Shown piece after piece: positions 49,899 to 57,488 of a DNA stretch of 64,000 nt. Position numbers and translations under genes: made by a program. The stretch's first letter is position 1. Each line of letters begins with the position of its first letter. The notes under the pieces were generated by a model. The model did not search any database. It saw only the letters and a program-made list of their open reading frames with translations, and had not been told where the DNA came from. The stretch is from Ruminococcus sp. (GTDB lineage: Bacteria; Bacillota; Clostridia; Oscillospirales; Acutalibacteraceae): the NCBI GenBank assembly GCA_022768065.1, contig JALELS010000020.1, forward strand, positions 62,001 to 126,000, read 5' to 3'.

Positions 49899-51035
49899 AT
49901 GGAATGTTATCTTGACAACAGCGCAACCACAAAACCCTGCAAAGCCGCTGTTGACGCAGAAATTTCCGCGCTGACCGAGCTTTACGGAAATCCGTCGTCG
50001 CTTCACCAAAAAGGCGTTGACGCATATATGCTTCTCGAAAAAAGCCGCAGTACGATTGCCGCAAGTTTAAAAGCCGACGCGGGCGAAATATATTTCACTC
50101 CCTGCGGCACGGTTTCAAACAACACGGCGATATTCGGCGCCGTCGGCGCAAAAAAACGACTCGGCAAAAAAATAGTCACTACGGCACTGGAGCATCCGAG
50201 CGTTGAAAAATGTATGGAACGCCTTGAGGAAAACGGTTTTGAAGTCGTGAGAATACAGCCTCAAAGCGACGGCAACACAAGTTTGTCCGATTTTGAAAAC
50301 GCGATTGACGAAAACACGATTTTGGTATCGGTAATGGCTGTCAACAACGAAGTCGGCTCTGTGATGCCCGTAGAAAATCTCAAGAAAATCATAAAGAGCA
50401 AAAATTCCCCCGCGCTTCTGCACGTTGACGATGTGCAGGGATATATGAAAATCCCGCTCTACCCAAAAAACTGCGGAATAGACCTTATGAGCGTCAGCGC
50501 ACACAAGGTTCACGGTCCTAAGGGCGTGGGAGCGCTTTATATAAATAAAAACGTACGCATAAACCCGTATATTCTCGGCGGCGGTCAGGAAAGCAATATG
50601 TGCTCGGGAACTCAGGGTATGCCGGCGATAGCAGGCTTTGCCGCCGCTGTCGAAAGCGGAGGAAGCGTCGAAAAAAATCTGAAGTATACGGCGGAGCTCA
50701 ATCTCCGTCTGAGAGAGCGGATAAAAGAAATTCCGGGAGTACATATAAATTCCCCCGAAAACGCTCTGCCGTACATCATCAATATTTCCATAGACGAAAT
50801 ACCGTCTCAGGTATCGGTAAACTTCTTTTCGATGAACGGCGTTTACATTTCGGCAGGCTCGGCTTGCTCTAAGGGCCACAGAAGCGACGTACTGCAAAAT
50901 ATGGGTCTTTCGCCCGACAGGATAGATTCCGCGATAAGAATAAGTCTCTCAAACGACACGAAAAAAGAAGAAATCGACTGTTGCGCCGAGGTAATCAAAA
51001 GCGCCGCGGAAAAACTCAGAAAACACAAAGGATAA
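49899..51035 (+). CDS. Cysteine desulfurase (NifS/IscS type)
   Basis: The 378-residue PLP enzyme has the Schiff-base Lys at about 203 in SAHKVHGPKG and the persulfide Cys at about 323 in SAGSACSKG. LDNSATTKP opens the fold. It takes sulfur from Cys and passes it as persulfide. Its position 4 bp before thiI indicates that it feeds tRNA 4-thiouridine synthesis, the NifZ-like role seen in Bacillus. HVDDVQ replaces the usual HVDAVQ; this may matter little. AAAGGAG precedes the ATG. Confidence 0.95.
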   Translation: MECYLDNSATTKPCKAAVDAEISALTELYGNPSSLHQKGVDAYMLLEKSRSTIAASLKADAGEIYFTPCGTVSNNTAIFGAVGAKKRLGKKIVTTALEHPSVEKCMERLEENGFEVVRIQPQSDGNTSLSDFENAIDENTILVSVMAVNNEVGSVMPVENLKKIIKSKNSPALLHVDDVQGYMKIPLYPKNCGIDLMSVSAHKVHGPKGVGALYINKNVRINPYILGGGQESNMCSGTQGMPAIAGFAAAVESGGSVEKNLKYTAELNLRLRERIKEIPGVHINSPENALPYIINISIDEIPSQVSVNFFSMNGVYISAGSACSKGHRSDVLQNMGLSPDRIDSAIRISLSNDTKKEEIDCCAEVIKSAAEKLRKHKG

Positions 51036-51039
51036 AGCT

Positions 51040-52212
51040 ATGAAAGAGATAATACTTATAAAAAACGGGGAGCTTGCGCTGAAAGGTCTTAACCGCTCGT
51101 CATTTGAGTCAACGCTCGCAAAAAACATCAAAAGGCGTCTTCAGTCGCTCGGAAAATTCAAGGTAATCCGTTCGCAGTCAACAATAACCGTAGAGCCTTT
51201 TGACGAGAGCTTTGATATGGAAGAGGCGGAGGACCGCATTTCACGCATATTCGGCATTGCGGGCTATGAGCGCGCCGCCGCAGTAGAAAAGGATATGGAA
51301 GTAATCCTCAAAACGACTCCCGTGTATTTAAGCGAGGCTCTTAAAAACGCTTCGACCTTTAAGGTGGAGGCAAAACGCGCCGACAAAACCTTCCCCTTAA
51401 AATCACCCGAAATATGCTGTGATGTCGGCGAGGCGGTTTTAAACGCTTTTCCGCACATCAGAGTCGATGTTAAAAATCCCGATTTGACCATAGTAATAGA
51501 AATCCGCGAAAATGCGGCTTACATTCACGGCGACCAGAAAAAGGGCGCAGGCGGTATGCCCGTCGGCACGGGCGGCAAAGCGGCGCTGCTTATCTCGGGC
51601 GGAATCGACAGCCCCGTTGCAGGCTGGATGATGGCAAAACGCGGTGTTGTTTTAAATGCCGTGCATTTTGCCTCTCCCCCGTTCACTTCGCCCATGTCCG
51701 AAATGAAGGTTCACGACCTTCTCGCAAAGGTAGCCAAATACAGCGGTACAATCAAGCTTATGACGGTACCGTTTACCGAGATACAGGAAAACATACGCGA
51801 TAAATGCCCCGAGGAGCTTTTCACCCTCATTATGCGGCGCTATATGATGCGTATATCAAATATCCTTGCCGAAAAAGAGGGGTGCGAGGCTATTGTCACG
51901 GGAGAGAGCGTAGGTCAGGTGGCAAGCCAAACCCTTACGGCGATGATGTCTACCGACAGCGTTTCGCGCTTACCGGTGCTTCGTCCGCTTGTCGGTATGG
52001 ATAAAAACGAAATAGTCGTTCTTTCGAGAAAGATAGATACATTTGATATTTCGATAAGACCGTTTGAGGATTGCTGTACGGTATTTACACCGAAGCATCC
52101 GCGTCTTCACCCGAAGGCCGACGAAATCGAAAAAGCCGAGTTATCTCTTGACAGCGACGCGCTCATAAGCCGCGCGGTTGAGGGCGTAAAACAGGAGCTT
52201 ATCACATTTTAA
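51040..52212 (+). CDS. thiI: tRNA 4-thiouridine synthase ThiI
   Basis: The 390-residue enzyme has an N-terminal ferredoxin-like region, a THUMP domain (about 60-165), and an ATP-pyrophosphatase domain with SGGIDSPVAGWMM near 186-198. It adenylates U8 of tRNA and adds sulfur from the upstream desulfurase. It lacks the C-terminal rhodanese domain found in E. coli ThiI, which fits the short Firmicute type that takes sulfur directly from the partner. The gene sits 4 bp after the desulfurase and 12 bp before the amidohydrolase. Confidence 0.97.
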   Translation: MKEIILIKNGELALKGLNRSSFESTLAKNIKRRLQSLGKFKVIRSQSTITVEPFDESFDMEEAEDRISRIFGIAGYERAAAVEKDMEVILKTTPVYLSEALKNASTFKVEAKRADKTFPLKSPEICCDVGEAVLNAFPHIRVDVKNPDLTIVIEIRENAAYIHGDQKKGAGGMPVGTGGKAALLISGGIDSPVAGWMMAKRGVVLNAVHFASPPFTSPMSEMKVHDLLAKVAKYSGTIKLMTVPFTEIQENIRDKCPEELFTLIMRRYMMRISNILAEKEGCEAIVTGESVGQVASQTLTAMMSTDSVSRLPVLRPLVGMDKNEIVVLSRKIDTFDISIRPFEDCCTVFTPKHPRLHPKADEIEKAELSLDSDALISRAVEGVKQELITF

Positions 52213-52224
52213 AGGATAACCGTT

Positions 52225-52701
52225 ATGAGTATTGAAAAGCAGACAGTAGAACTTCTCAAAAGCAAAAAAATGAAGCTTGCCACGGCAGAGAGCTGTACGG
52301 GCGGACTTATTGCGAAACGCATTACCGACGTATCGGGCTCTTCCGAAGTGTTTGAGGGCGGCGTTGTCTGTTATTCAAACCGCTTTAAAGAAAACGTGCT
52401 CGGAGTTTCCCGCGAGACGCTTAAAAAATACGGCGCCGTAAGCCAAGAAACCGCGCGCGAAATGGTAAGAGGGGTTTTGTCTCTTACAAAGGCGGATATA
52501 GCCGTTGCCGTTACCGGCATAGCGGGACCGTCCTCGGACGATACAAATAAGCCCGTGGGTCTGGTTTTTATAGCGGTTTCGGACGGCAAAAGCACAATAG
52601 TTAAAAAGCTTCTAAACAATTTTACCGGCGACGTCAGAACGCAAAACCGCAACCTCAGCGCAGATACCGCTCTTGAAATGATAATGGAGGCAATACGATG
52701 A
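52225..52701 (+). CDS. CinA C-terminal domain amidohydrolase (PncC type)
   Basis: The 158-residue protein is the stand-alone CinA C-terminal domain: ATAESCTGGLIAKRITDVSG (about 19-38), GGVVCYSN, YGAVSQETAREM and VTGIAGPSSD. These enzymes convert nicotinamide mononucleotide to nicotinic acid mononucleotide in pyridine salvage. The N-terminal MoCF domain of full CinA is absent, which is common. It overlaps the first sortase gene by 4 bp (ATGA). A degenerate copy of the same two-domain CinA fold appears 2.6 kb downstream inside a membrane protein. Confidence 0.93.
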   Translation: MSIEKQTVELLKSKKMKLATAESCTGGLIAKRITDVSGSSEVFEGGVVCYSNRFKENVLGVSRETLKKYGAVSQETAREMVRGVLSLTKADIAVAVTGIAGPSSDDTNKPVGLVFIAVSDGKSTIVKKLLNNFTGDVRTQNRNLSADTALEMIMEAIR

Positions 52702-53708
52702 ACGACGATAATGTCATCACCGAAAACACCGTTCCGCCGAAAAAGGGCGGCAAAAAGAAGCAAAGGAAGCCCATGGGCAAGGGCAGTAAATTTATACTCT
52801 TTATATCAATAATTGTTTTAATAGTCTCCGGAACCTTCTGTGTAAAATACGGCGTTGACATAATAAAGAGTAAAAAAGAGGCGGCGGAAATAGCAAGTCT
52901 TGCGGATCCGCAATTCGACGTGCCCGAATATGATTACGGAGACACGGTTTTTCCGGACGGTATTCAGGAAAAATACAAAAAAGCGTATTCCGTAAACCCC
53001 GACCTTGTCGGCTGGATAAAAGTTCCCGGTACAACCATAAATCATCCCGTTGTGCACGGCTCCGACAACAACTACTATTTAAGGCGCAACTTCTACGGCA
53101 ACTACGAGCGCCGCGGAACCCCGTTTGTCGATTACCGCAATACGATAACCGACGGCGAATTTGACACAAACACCATTATTTACGGTCATAATTACCTCGA
53201 TTCCACGATGTTCTCGGACGTTGAAAAATACAAGGACATCGAATTTTGGAAAGCAAACCCCGTAATTGAGTTTGACACTATCTATCACGATTACAAATGG
53301 AAAGTCATAGCGGTCTTTTTGACAAATGCGGATGAAAAAGACGACAACGGCTATGTTTTCAATTACATATATCCGTTTATGAGCGGCGATAATTACGCCG
53401 AGTATTTTAACGAGATTGCGTCGCGTTCGCTCTATTCGACGGGAATAGACGTAAACACCGACGACAAAATACTCACCCTCTCGACCTGCACGCGCGATAT
53501 GGATATTTCAACGCGCCGCGGCGAGACGAATGCCCGCTGCGTACTGGTTGCAAGGCTCGTAAGAGACGGTGAAAGCGAAGAGGTTGACACTTCGCTTGCT
53601 ACGGTAAACGAAAATCCGCGTTACCCGCAGATATGGTATGACAAATATAAAAAGACAAACCCCTATAAAAACGCCGAAAGATGGTACCCGAAAGGAGTGA
53701 GAGCTTAA
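52698..53708 (+). CDS. Class B sortase 1
   Basis: The 336-residue protein has a cytoplasmic Lys-rich tail, one membrane helix (about 31-52) and a sortase B domain. Catalytic residues are His164 in IIYGHNYLD, Cys264 in TLSTC, and Arg near 280. It cleaves a sorting motif and joins the substrate to the wall. After the barrel comes a conserved C-terminal extension with PQIWYDK and AERWYPKG, shared with the next gene. It overlaps the amidohydrolase by 4 bp and adjoins the second sortase directly. Confidence 0.94.
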   Translation: MNDDNVITENTVPPKKGGKKKQRKPMGKGSKFILFISIIVLIVSGTFCVKYGVDIIKSKKEAAEIASLADPQFDVPEYDYGDTVFPDGIQEKYKKAYSVNPDLVGWIKVPGTTINHPVVHGSDNNYYLRRNFYGNYERRGTPFVDYRNTITDGEFDTNTIIYGHNYLDSTMFSDVEKYKDIEFWKANPVIEFDTIYHDYKWKVIAVFLTNADEKDDNGYVFNYIYPFMSGDNYAEYFNEIASRSLYSTGIDVNTDDKILTLSTCTRDMDISTRRGETNARCVLVARLVRDGESEEVDTSLATVNENPRYPQIWYDKYKKTNPYKNAERWYPKGVRA

Positions 53709-55268
53709 ATGAGCAAAAGCAGGAATGAAAAAAACAACGATCAAGAGCTTTTATCATTTGAAGAGCTTAAAAATAAGGTGAACAAGGAAACCGCAAAGGG
53801 TGAAAAGCCAGACAGCGAGATAAACGATTTGCTCTCTGCCCTCGGCGACGAGCCGAAGGACAAAGCGCAGTCCGAGCAGAAAAACGAACAGTCGGTTAAA
53901 GACGAGCCGTTGCATACCGAAAAGACGGAGCGTCAAGACCTTGAGGACAAACCGACGGAAGAAAGCGAAAAGAAAGAAAACGAAGTCGTCGATAAAAACA
54001 CCGACAGAATCTACAACGATATTTTGTCTGCCATAAACGACAATTCGCAAAACGAAAACGAGCAGACTTCAAGAAGAAACAAATATTCCGGTGACGAAAA
54101 CCACTTCATTGATATTACAAATCAATATCAGAAGCCGCGCGAGGAAGAAAAAGCTCCCGCCGAAAACGTCGCAATAGTTCGCCCCTCTAAGGACAAAAAG
54201 CCGGAAGAAAAGGCTCAGGAAAAACCCGAGGAGGAGAAAAAAGAAGAAAAACCGGAAGAAGAGGAAAAGCCCGTCAAGACTTTCGGCGAGATGTTTAAGA
54301 GCGGTCTTGCGTCATTCTTCCCGAACAAGCACGATAAAGTTTCGGAGATAATCCGAAAAGTAATAATGGACGTCTCTGTTTTCACGCTTATCGGCTGTGC
54401 CATTTGGTTCGGCGTGCTGATGGGGCAGAAAAACAGCACCAACAAGCAAAATGCCAACATTAAAGGTCAGGTTATCGACGCCGATTCAAATCTTACCGAC
54501 GAAGAGGCATGGGCGGAATTTTTTGCCAAATACCCCAACGTCACGCTGCCACAGGGTATGATGCCGAAATACGCTTACCTCTACGCCATAAACAACGACC
54601 TTGTCGGCTGGATTCGCGTTCCCAATTCGGCAATTGACGTTCAGGTGGTACAGTCCGAGGATAACGACGAGTACCTCAAAAAGGATTTCTACGGCAATTA
54701 CAGCCGTTACGGCTGCCCGTTTCTCGATTTCCGCTGCGACCCCAAATATCTCAGCCAGAACACGGTAATTTACGGCCATCATATGAGCGACGGTCTCGTA
54801 TTTGCCGAGCTTGACAAGTACAAAAAGCCCGAGGGCTTTAAGGAGTCGCCGATTATTGAATACGACACTCTGTTTAAGACATATAAATTCAAGGTCTATG
54901 CCGTATTTATATCAAACAGCACGCCCGAGCAGGATAACGGCTATCTCTTTTACTACAACACGCCCAAATTCCCGACAAAAGAAAACTTCGACGGATTTAT
55001 AGCGGCAATAGATGAGAGAAAACTTTATTCCACAGGCGTCAGCGTAGACTATTCGGATAAGCTCATTACATTATCCACCTGCAGTTACGAATTTTCAAAT
55101 GCAAGACTTGTAGTTGTCGGCAGACTTCTGCGCGACGGCGAGAGCGAAAACGTAGACACCTCGCTCGTCACGGTAAACGAAAATCCGCACTATCCGCAGA
55201 TATGGTATGATAAAAAAGGTCAAAAGAACCCCTTTGCTTCGGCGGAAAAATGGTACGCCGCCGAATAA
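53709..55268 (+). CDS. Class B sortase 2 with long acidic cytoplasmic region
   Basis: The 519-residue protein has a 215-residue cytoplasmic region rich in Glu, Lys, Pro and Asn, ending in a Glu/Lys block near 165-190. One membrane helix follows (about 219-239), then a sortase B domain with His357 in VIYGHHMSDG, Cys458 in TLSTC and Arg466. The C-terminal extension PQIWYDK and AEKWYAAE matches sortase 1. The start follows the sortase 1 stop immediately, with AAAGGAG as ribosome site. The long tail is not usual for class B sortases and may bind cytoplasmic partners. Tandem duplication with sequence divergence is likely. Confidence 0.94.
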   Translation: MSKSRNEKNNDQELLSFEELKNKVNKETAKGEKPDSEINDLLSALGDEPKDKAQSEQKNEQSVKDEPLHTEKTERQDLEDKPTEESEKKENEVVDKNTDRIYNDILSAINDNSQNENEQTSRRNKYSGDENHFIDITNQYQKPREEEKAPAENVAIVRPSKDKKPEEKAQEKPEEEKKEEKPEEEEKPVKTFGEMFKSGLASFFPNKHDKVSEIIRKVIMDVSVFTLIGCAIWFGVLMGQKNSTNKQNANIKGQVIDADSNLTDEEAWAEFFAKYPNVTLPQGMMPKYAYLYAINNDLVGWIRVPNSAIDVQVVQSEDNDEYLKKDFYGNYSRYGCPFLDFRCDPKYLSQNTVIYGHHMSDGLVFAELDKYKKPEGFKESPIIEYDTLFKTYKFKVYAVFISNSTPEQDNGYLFYYNTPKFPTKENFDGFIAAIDERKLYSTGVSVDYSDKLITLSTCSYEFSNARLVVVGRLLRDGESENVDTSLVTVNENPHYPQIWYDKKGQKNPFASAEKWYAAE

Positions 55269-55310
55269 TCGGTTTTTAATACACATTTATAAACAAGGAT
55301 GGACAAGGAT

Positions 55311-57488
55311 ATGAATTTGAAATTGTTTTCACTTATCTCAGGTGATGACATTCCGGCTACTAAGCTTCAAATCAAAATTTCCGGCAGTCTTAACGCCTTT
55401 ACCGACGACGATGTATCTTTCAAGAGTTTTTCGTCTCTCAAAGAGATGTTCCCGTCACTCGGCAAAGCGCTCACGGACTCCGAGCTTATAGTTATTGCCG
55501 TTGACCCGAAGGTATACGTAAGGACAAAAGCGTTGCTTACAAAGGCACTCTCTCTTGAAATCGAGGAAAATCCGACGGTCAAAAAGGCACTCGGCCGCGC
55601 CGCGGAAATTCCCGAGTCGCAAAAGCTGCTTCAGGCGCAGATGCCGAAAGGCGCCGTTCCGTTTTTAACTCGCGACGGTGTAAATTCCGGCTTTGTTATC
55701 TCAAAGGGACACCAGCAGATAATGTATCTGCCGCTTGACGACGCGCGCATTGACACGGTGCTTCGCAACGGTGTTATCCCCTATCTTACGAGCGGCGAAA
55801 CCATGGCTGTCCGCGAGGAGGCTCCCGCTCCGAAAAGCGCGCCCGCAAAGCCGCAGATTCCGGTCAAAAAGCCCGAAACGCCGGCGCCCGAAAAAGCTGC
55901 GGAAATTCCGCCCGTACTTCCCGAAAACGTCGGGGAAATTACCGCCAAAACCGTAAACATTCTCCGTGAGAGCGGAAGCAGAGTTGCGGTAAACGGCAAT
56001 CAGAATTCCGAATACGTAAAATCCTTCGGCTCCGTTTCGCCCGACTTTTTTGAATTTTTCACCTTTACTCCGCACGTTGAGGATAAAGGCGACTTCAATG
56101 TTACCGATTACACGGCACAGATGGCAAAATCCGCAAAAGAGCTCGCCTCGGCGGATTTCGGCGCGTGCATTTCGGATATTTGCAATACCGACGGCTGTTC
56201 TTACATATGTATAGCCGTTGCAGGCGAAAGCTCCGCGATAGTCAGAAAGCTCTACCAGGAGCCCGACGAAAAGGACGAGAGCTTTATAAAGGACGCCGCG
56301 GAAGAGCTTATAGAGCTTATCGGTGAAAAGGCTTCGGGTGAAAACTCGGTCGGCATAGAAATTTCCGGTGAATCCGCCGCAGAGCCCGAAGACGAAAAGC
56401 CGAGCGGCAAGGGTAAAAAGGTTCTTGTTTCAATCCTTATAATAATCCTCGCTCTTGCCGTTGCGGCAGGCGCATTTTTCCTTGTGAAATATCAAAGAGA
56501 CAAAAAAGCCGCAGAGGCGCTCGCAAACACCGCACCCGAAACAACTACCGAAGCGACCACCGCTCCTCCGGAGATGTCAAAGGACACTGTTCCGCTATCT
56601 GTTTTTATGTATAACGAAACCGTAAACGGAATTGACAAGGACGATCTCGCGAGAGCGGCCGAGGACGCCGCGAACGCAGAGTCTCAAAGCGACAATACGA
56701 CAAACGCCAACACACTGCCCGAATACATCGTGCTCAACGGTGTAAAAACGGACGCCAAAAAGGCAATCGCAAAAATTGTAGCTGCGGATATTGACGACAA
56801 CTACAACTCTGAAGCCATTAAGGCAGACGCCGTGGCCGTTTATACATATTTGAAATACCGCAACACAAACTTTAATGTGAGCGGGCTCAACGCCGCAGAA
56901 AACGTGAGCGACAATATACTGAACGCGGTTTCCGAGGTATTCGGCGAATATGTTGTATACGACGGTCAACCGACATTCACTCCCACGTTTAAGCTGTCGG
57001 CAGGCAAAACAACATCGGCGGACGTTGTTTTCGGAAAATCATTCCCCTACCTTAAAACGGTTGACAGCGCGTCCGATAAAAACGCGGACGGTTACAAGAC
57101 CGAAATCACTCTGACATCGGGAGAATTAAAAGAGCTTGTAAATAAATTTGACAGCTCAATAAATCTTTCCGGATCTGCCAAAGACTGGGTAAAGGTTACA
57201 AAACACGACGGCGCAATCAGCACGGGAGTAGGATATGTTGAAACCGTAAACGTCGGCGGTAAGGAGATAAGCGGATATAAATTCGCCTCTGAGCTTCTCG
57301 AAAACAAGATTCCGTCATACTGCTTTGCCGTTTCTTACGCTTCTTCCGGCGATACATTTAAAATAACCTCATACGGCAGCGGATACGGCGTCGGTATGAG
57401 CCTTGCAGGCGCAAACAAAATGGCTGCCGACGGCTCAACCTACGCGCAGATACTCGCAAAGTACTATCCCGGAACAACTCTTTCATAA
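55311..57488 (+). CDS. CinA-like/SpoIID-like fusion membrane protein, probably non-catalytic
   Basis: The 725-residue protein has three parts. The first (about 5-160) resembles the MoCF domain of CinA: LITVAVDPKVYVRTKALLT stands where GGLGPTxDD is expected, and MPKGAVPFLTRDGVNSGFV then YLPLDDAR echo CinA's PxGA...PGF...LPG. A Pro/Ala linker (175-205) leads to a second domain (about 206-340) like CinA's C-terminus (AQMAKSAKELASADFGACIS) without its TAESCTGG. A membrane helix (370-394) follows, then an exported SpoIID/LytB domain (EAIKADAVAVYTYLKY; GSGYGVGMSLAGANKMA; ILAKYYPGTTL). The expected catalytic Glu of SpoIID reads Asp in AADIDD. No close family is recognised. M1 at 55299 is also possible. 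Confidence 0.7.
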   Translation: MNLKLFSLISGDDIPATKLQIKISGSLNAFTDDDVSFKSFSSLKEMFPSLGKALTDSELIVIAVDPKVYVRTKALLTKALSLEIEENPTVKKALGRAAEIPESQKLLQAQMPKGAVPFLTRDGVNSGFVISKGHQQIMYLPLDDARIDTVLRNGVIPYLTSGETMAVREEAPAPKSAPAKPQIPVKKPETPAPEKAAEIPPVLPENVGEITAKTVNILRESGSRVAVNGNQNSEYVKSFGSVSPDFFEFFTFTPHVEDKGDFNVTDYTAQMAKSAKELASADFGACISDICNTDGCSYICIAVAGESSAIVRKLYQEPDEKDESFIKDAAEELIELIGEKASGENSVGIEISGESAAEPEDEKPSGKGKKVLVSILIIILALAVAAGAFFLVKYQRDKKAAEALANTAPETTTEATTAPPEMSKDTVPLSVFMYNETVNGIDKDDLARAAEDAANAESQSDNTTNANTLPEYIVLNGVKTDAKKAIAKIVAADIDDNYNSEAIKADAVAVYTYLKYRNTNFNVSGLNAAENVSDNILNAVSEVFGEYVVYDGQPTFTPTFKLSAGKTTSADVVFGKSFPYLKTVDSASDKNADGYKTEITLTSGELKELVNKFDSSINLSGSAKDWVKVTKHDGAISTGVGYVETVNVGGKEISGYKFASELLENKIPSYCFAVSYASSGDTFKITSYGSGYGVGMSLAGANKMAADGSTYAQILAKYYPGTTLS

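Follow-up and report, generated by a model that had tools for sequence, protein, structure and literature searches.

In general, CinA counts as a soluble enzyme with a housekeeping role in NAD recycling, sortase B is seen as an anchoring enzyme that acts alone, and SpoIID is known mainly as an enzyme of sporulation. A MoCF fold, the fold of the N-terminal part of CinA, is also contained in Glp. CinA acts as NMN deamidase and ADP-ribose pyrophosphatase (T. thermophilus structures 4ct8 and 4cta), and SpoIID is an engulfment lytic transglycosylase with structures from C. difficile (5i1t, 5txu) and B. anthracis (4rwr). The available text on the T. thermophilus enzyme (TtCinA) describes CinA as a dimer and names E12, D45, D76, E156, Y296, K301, T340 and R377 as catalytic or ligand residues, of which E12, D45, D76 and E156 belong to the Mg/ADP-ribose site and Y296, K301 and R377 to the NMN site (PMC4246079). 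According to the available part of another source, fusions of the CinA domain with further domains occur now and then; these cases are set aside there, and that part does not mention sortases (PMC3855486). Since CinA fusions are known to exist, a fusion of the kind described below may already have appeared in a database plot. A SpoIID-like candidate sortase substrate is named in C. acetobutylicum in the part of the source available.

Two other systems resemble the protein studied here in their mode of action. As far as the available texts go, SteA/SteB-RipA of Mycobacteriales links a cytosolic, degenerate nucleotide-enzyme fold through the membrane to a wall hydrolase (PMC12977500), and Glp of Corynebacteriales is a repurposed molybdotransferase serving as a divisome scaffold together with the membrane receptor GlpR (PMC10522489). 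Both are precedents for repurposed cytosolic enzyme folds that steer envelope proteins.

The protein described here shares with CinA the MoCF and CinA_C folds in the same order. Unlike CinA, it has no KH domain, its catalytic and ligand residues are lost, and a membrane helix and a predicted outside domain are attached. Unlike the known SpoIID proteins, this outside SpoIID domain has an Asp (Asp497) and a Tyr at conserved positions and is fused to the cytosolic pseudo-CinA. The two sortases beside it resemble known class B sortases in family score and in their intact His and Cys; unlike typical class B sortases, those of other genera and families of the order can be fused to an intact CinA, and in relatives a dead sortase copy is fused to SpoIID. 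SteA differs from our protein by its thiamine-pyrophosphokinase-like fold, by its hydrolase and by the separation of regulator and hydrolase, with no sortase in the available text (PMC12977500); Glp differs by its MoeA lineage and by being a soluble protein with a receptor, with neither sortase nor wall enzyme fused in the available text (PMC10522489). None of the 50 structure matches listed for our model has a SteA-like fold, and the likeness to SteA is in mode of action alone. The component families are known; our searches of open-licence papers found none on their combination. We propose here, with a confidence that is evenly balanced, that the dead CinA body is a cytosolic coupling scaffold that holds SpoIID and sortase B together.

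Layout of the locus

We analysed a stretch of 64 kb (the window; contig bases 62001-126000) from an assembly of 1.92 Mb that is 96.8% complete. A preliminary description of it had proposed a membrane protein in which degenerate CinA halves are joined to a degenerate SpoIID domain, with a genuine CinA C-terminal enzyme upstream and two sortases between. The reading frame is real and intact; the start given in that description is its second in-frame ATG, which fits the start of most homologues. The features are as follows.

49899..52212, + strand: iscS and thiI, upstream flank, which is the flank in relatives too
52225..52701, + strand: CinA_C/PncC, 158 aa, without the MoCF half (PF02464, 188.6 bits; TIGR00199, 161.4)
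52698..53708, + strand: class B sortase 1, His and Cys intact (TIGR03064, 172.8 bits)
53709..55268, + strand: class B sortase 2, directly upstream of the next gene, His and Cys intact (TIGR03064, 158.5 bits)
55299..57488, + strand: pseudo-CinA-SpoIID gene (P0001), intact ORF, 729 aa from the first ATG
55311, + strand: alternative in-frame ATG of P0001
55311..55793, + strand: pseudo-MoCF (CinA N-terminal/COG1058 fold), aa 5-165, GGLGPTxDD and PGPP motifs lost
55794..55925, + strand: linker, aa 166-209, at the position of the KH domain in CinA; mostly low-confidence, pLDDT <50 at 168-186 and 200-203
55926..56336, + strand: pseudo-CinA_C (NMN deamidase fold), aa 210-346, AESCTGG-type motif, catalytic Lys and phosphate Arg lost
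56421..56477, + strand: single transmembrane helix, aa 375-393 (hydropathy 2.97 over 19 residues)
56478..56714, + strand: post-helix linker, aa 394-472, with a Thr-rich start (from the sequence)
56715..57485, + strand: SpoIID/LytB domain, aa 473-729 (family model over its cut-off, and fold)
56787..56789, + strand: Asp497 codon, position of the catalytic Glu (aligns with C. difficile SpoIID E101)
57384..57386, + strand: Tyr696 codon, position of the conserved His of GHGVGMSQ (alignment)

The genuine CinA_C enzyme was thus found where it had been placed, and both genes between it and P0001 exceed the TIGR03064 cut-off of 153.75, with the catalytic motifs YGH and TLSTC. Sortase 2 has about 210 aa ahead of its membrane helix, which hydropathy places at aa 214-232. 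The downstream neighbour of P0001 is a galE-like epimerase gene. Within the 64-kb window we detected no tRNA (ARAGORN) and no Rfam family at gathering score. A plasmid origin of P0001 was rejected: in eight records of a plasmid collection the SpoIID end alone was matched, over at most 31% of the query.

The whole genome was also searched. It encodes elsewhere another SpoIID, which scores strongly against Pfam, and a SpoIIP amidase, so that P0001 is unlikely to be the engulfment enzyme. No match to PF00994 (MoCF) was obtained in this genome at E 0.001, a search positive in 13 of 14 control genomes; the genome therefore seems to have lost the MoCF half of CinA and kept the CinA_C half. Substrates for the sortases seem to be available: seven ORFs exceed the cut-off of an LPXTG model. 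Alone this model is unspecific, since 9 of 14 control genomes also have matches over its cut-off, but all seven ORFs carry a P-x-T-G motif (IPKTG, VPKTG or NPKTG, for example) close to a hydrophobic end rich in Lys. On the same contig, outside the window, lies a third small sortase, of 229 aa from its start codon (230137-230511, locus L154), adjoined by an apparently secreted protein of 201 aa with IAKTG and a hydrophobic tail.

The N-terminal part and its rewritten pocket

The predicted structure contains both halves of CinA, MoCF followed by CinA_C as in the enzyme, and this two-domain fold is predicted with confidence. Profile-profile comparison with CinA gave E 1.2e-24. The KH domain between the two halves is missing: 78-97% of 32 pseudo-CinA sequences have a gap at the conserved CinA columns between 187 and 206. 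Of 116 CinA-conserved columns, only 12 keep their residue in at least half of these sequences. MoCF parts were assigned from profile scores and alignment A2, in which TtCinA E12, D45, D76, E156, Y296, K301, T340 and R377 correspond to columns 11, 44, 75, 155, 303, 308, 350 and 391, as read off the alignment. Identity at these positions is kept in 16, 19, 0, 0, 3, 0, 31 and 0% of the 32 sequences, respectively; seven of the eight residues are thus retained in at most 19%, and five in 0-3%. The window's protein has none of the eight. At the T340 position all 32 have Ser or Thr (Ser292 in the window's protein). Judging from the alignment, the N-terminal part looks like a pseudoenzyme on the CinA fold, in agreement with what had been described.

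In the old active-site loops we observed a new signature: an aromatic residue at 73 (32/32), Lys77 (31/32), Asp126 (27/32), Ser130 (28/32), Phe132 (31/32), Asp147 (28/32) and Arg150 (23/32). The loops look rewritten rather than randomised, and since such a conserved signature is not drift, they may serve another ligand or a protein partner.

The rewritten pocket is the strongest point in favour of an alternative that we consider unlikely, in which the dead CinA would be a cytosolic small-molecule receptor signalling through the helix to SpoIID and sortase. Its ligand would be NMN, ADP-ribose or, more likely, a different nucleotide, for example a UDP-linked wall precursor. The new signature and the invariant Ser/Thr at the T340 place fit such a receptor, as does the case of SteA: this regulator of a wall hydrolase has a degenerate nucleotide-enzyme fold, and its C. 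glutamicum form is stabilised by GDP and UDP, according to the available text (PMC12977500). However, the seven residues of the Mg/ADP-ribose and NMN sites are kept in 0-19% of the sequences and none in the window's protein, the ADP-ribose site lacks the KH domain by which it is closed, and one transmembrane helix after a flexible linker makes a weak signal path. With these residues lost, sensing of NMN or ADP-ribose in the old pockets was rejected as the leading idea, and the suggestion of an NMN-like ligand in the preliminary description is not supported. The coupling scaffold remains our preferred reading.

The SpoIID part

The CinA part is joined through the membrane helix to a SpoIID domain, recognised by family model and fold (pLDDT of the predicted structure, 95.9). 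Each of the three segments matches the family named for it beyond chance. The catalytic Glu is absent from the window's protein, replaced by Asp497 as had been noted. The degeneracy of SpoIID is not a general trait of the family: of 41 distinct SpoIID domains fused to pseudo-CinA (the window's counted), 38 retain the Glu, and the three without a confirmed Glu are the window's (Asp), L035 (Ala) and L046, unaligned at this column. A same-genus orthologue, L034, has the Glu. A family of SpoIID pseudoenzymes was thereby rejected. By the aligned residues, the SpoIID part of most relatives keeps its Glu and probably cuts denuded glycan. The loss belongs to the window's lineage and was seen in P0001 and one relative (L035); with Asp497 and Tyr696, the window's domain more likely binds glycan than cuts it.

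Unlike known SpoIID, 27 of the 41 fused domains are circularly permuted. In this form, the end with GHGVGMSQ and YYPGT precedes the half with the catalytic Glu, and the profile coverages of the two parts are complementary and non-overlapping. Examples are L036:7494-9863, L038, L041, L054, L069, L071, L072 and others; in L071 and L072 the stretch has no sortase match beside the permuted gene. We found no open-licence paper on SpoIID and circular permutation. A split form, with pseudo-CinA and SpoIID as separate adjacent genes, was seen at L054:6948 and L069:6735; the SpoIID protein there carries a repeat resembling dockerin type I.

Linkage of pseudo-CinA to sortase genes

When the single protein P0001 was used as query, the related-locus search returned no relatives. 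The loci counted below (the window, L033-L103 and L134-L153) were gathered with P0001, A1 or A3, that is with pseudo-CinA or SpoIID queries, and the linkage counts therefore describe the set so found. For A1 we selected sequences scoring >120 with a first pseudo-CinA profile, without a CinA_C match >100 and longer than 300; that first profile also took in true CinA, and later counts were made with the profile built from A1, which omits the L055 and L056 genes, hidden by an overlap filter, as well as the degenerate MoCF parts that score more weakly (L062, L063 and L065-L068). Orthologues of the same genus are full length, with 37-44% identity.

In the fetched stretches, every one of the 59 distinct pseudo-CinA genes is accompanied by a same-strand sortase gene. 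For 57 of them this gene lies within 250 bp; the other two are second tandem copies. The tie to sortases that had been proposed was thus recovered throughout this set. A CinA or CinA_C gene on the same strand accompanies 56 of the 59 (full-length CinA in 36 of these 56), the three other stretches ending soon upstream, and thiI is present for 49. SpoIID is fused in 41 of 59. Among the 18 unfused genes, five have a SpoIID gene elsewhere in the stretch and 13 have none there, which indicates that the job of the pseudo-CinA does not need SpoIID in cis. On the other hand, cinA, thiI and iscS could adjoin by old gene order alone, and fusions between neighbours could then partly be accidents of adjacency.

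Some class B sortases have about 670-700 residues before the sortase domain (L053:5518, of 945 aa; L055:4081; L056:5228; L059:4495). Those of L056 and L059 have lost His and Cys (Lys and Ser instead), and they lie beside a pseudo-CinA to which no SpoIID is fused. Directly ahead of their sortase membrane helix, the window's 53709-55268 gene, L053:5518, L066:3174 and L062:10918 have in common a juxtamembrane segment of the FPxKGDxxxEIIRK type (FPNKHDKVSEIIRK in the window), which occurs in fused and unfused sortases alike; this likeness may point to a common ancestor of the two kinds.

Fusions of CinA and of SpoIID with sortase

Class B sortases carrying CinA_C were found as 16 distinct ORFs. 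Fifteen of them retain the sortase His and Cys, and 14 have both MoCF and CinA_C with the AESCT motif; L143 has CinA_C alone, and L134, degenerate in CinA_C and sortase, joins a nearly full CinA without the AESCTGG-type motif to a sortase without His and Cys (L134:8672, 891 aa). Four numbered families of the order (f1, f4, f9 and f15) contain the intact fusions, whereas the degenerate one comes from f26. In the intact form, of 744-1089 aa, CinA is connected via a membrane helix to the sortase (L062:10918, L063:2715, L066:3174, and likewise L067:3914, L068:3004 and L135-L142). One ORF, L066:3174-6092, was tested against the Pfam cut-offs and exceeds those for MoCF, CinA_KH, CinA and sortase at once. 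Beside these fusions, too, lies thiI wherever the stretch reaches that far.

The window's family has eight loci with a CinA-sortase fusion. In five of them (L062, L065-L068) the next gene combines a dead sortase with a Glu-bearing SpoIID domain. Its N-terminus is either a degenerate MoCF or not recognised, and it has a membrane helix, as checked for L065 and L066. At L063 a dead sortase and a separate SpoIID gene lie beside the fusion, no SpoIID was seen in the stretches of L135 and L136, and L064 has an additional dead-sortase-SpoIID gene. The sortase His and Cys are lost in six of seven sortase-SpoIID fusions, the exception being L144 (f26).

The search was extended to the class (391 genomes). 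Among the matches listed, four ORFs are longer than 500 aa: G202 (876 aa, in the window's family), G771 (736 aa, with a TAG inside), G677 (532) and G917 (524). Outside the order, the matches listed are CinA-sized ORFs <500 aa apart from G771, G677 and G917.

Selection and spread

In an unrooted tree with several long-branch rows, the 32 pseudo-CinA sequences form one group against 39 CinA, on a 100/100 branch with a long stem. The dN/dS of the pseudo-CinA part was 0.06-0.27 in 16 of 19 close locus pairs, some sharing a locus and none including the window's protein; three pairs were saturated in synonymous changes. In the 13 pairs with both proteins, it was higher than that of full CinA in nine (up to about fivefold) and lower in four, so that constraint is present but weaker than on the CinA enzyme. 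The dead CinA of the relatives examined is an old, conserved protein, under purifying selection in the pairs tested.

Those relatives that have a title are MAGs labelled Clostridia, Clostridiales, Oscillospiraceae, Ruminococcaceae or Clostridiaceae bacterium, and one is Candidatus Onthovicinus excrementipullorum; many come from the guts of goats and sheep. An A1 match at E 1e-20 or better, which in some cases covers the first half only, was obtained in 70 of 300 family genomes and 29 of 135 genera (61 of the 230 better genomes). The 230 family genomes without such a match indicate that the module is optional. The order search (394 genomes) gave 11 matches of at least 260 bits, each in the window's family; the next had 58.5 bits.

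One could suppose that the work is done by SpoIID, with the CinA-like part a leftover fusion anchor that has a tether role alone. The Glu retained in 38 of 41 fused domains agrees with this, and in several close pairs SpoIID is better conserved than the CinA part (for example 91 versus 62%, L041/L048). But the purifying selection on the CinA part in the pairs tested, its confident two-domain fold, the 18 pseudo-CinA genes without fused SpoIID and the 13 among them with none in the stretch all speak against a mere anchor, and we hold this explanation to be quite improbable. That P0001 is simply decaying in the window's lineage, with no present function, has in its favour the change of both Glu and His in its SpoIID, the genome's lack of a PF00994 match at E 0.001 and the absence of this protein from the dN/dS pairs, but we deem it very improbable given a frame intact over 729 codons, full-length orthologues in the genus, a confident SpoIID model and the conservative nature of Glu to Asp.

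Discussion

A dead copy under selection, a sortase neighbour wherever we looked and a SpoIID domain in 41 of 59 cases make a coupling body the best explanation. In the proposed mechanism, P0001 would be the third member of an envelope module of CinA, class B sortase and SpoIID: a single-pass membrane protein whose dead CinA body (MoCF and CinA_C, no KH) lies in the cytosol and whose SpoIID domain meets the wall glycan outside. The CinA fold dimerises in the enzyme, and on this ground we propose that it could pair the dead CinA in the cytosol with itself, with the neighbouring true CinA or with a CinA-bearing sortase; in the window, the intact CinA_C (52225..52701) is a possible candidate partner. 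Such pairing would keep SpoIID next to sortase B, and glycan would then be opened or gripped where sortase B attaches proteins. We infer the topology, the cytosolic pairing, the coupling and any effect on the wall. Against the scaffold we count the missing KH domain, the constraint weaker than on true CinA, the 18 of 59 genes without fused SpoIID, the 230 of 300 genomes without the module, and L063, L135 and L136, where no dead-sortase-SpoIID gene stands beside the CinA-sortase fusion.

A broader picture, which we put forward as tentative and rather doubtful, is that this large order of gut bacteria (apparently Oscillospirales) has a CinA-fold transmembrane machine. One subunit would be live CinA with live sortase B; in the second, SpoIID would be fused to a dead CinA and in some cases also to a dead sortase. 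The two would pair through CinA in the cytosol, and the rewritten pocket, for a ligand or a partner, would time the opening of glycan and the attachment of surface proteins. If this were true, NAD-recycling chemistry would be coupled to surface building.

The repeated fusion and close linkage across genera and families of gut Clostridia suggest a working connection between CinA, sortase and SpoIID. An enzyme fold has been kept in at least 29 genera after the loss of its catalytic residues, and the dead CinA beside sortases suggests an unrecognised link from inside to outside in the building of the cell surface. It may offer an entry point to wall opening and surface-protein placement in mostly uncultured gut bacteria.
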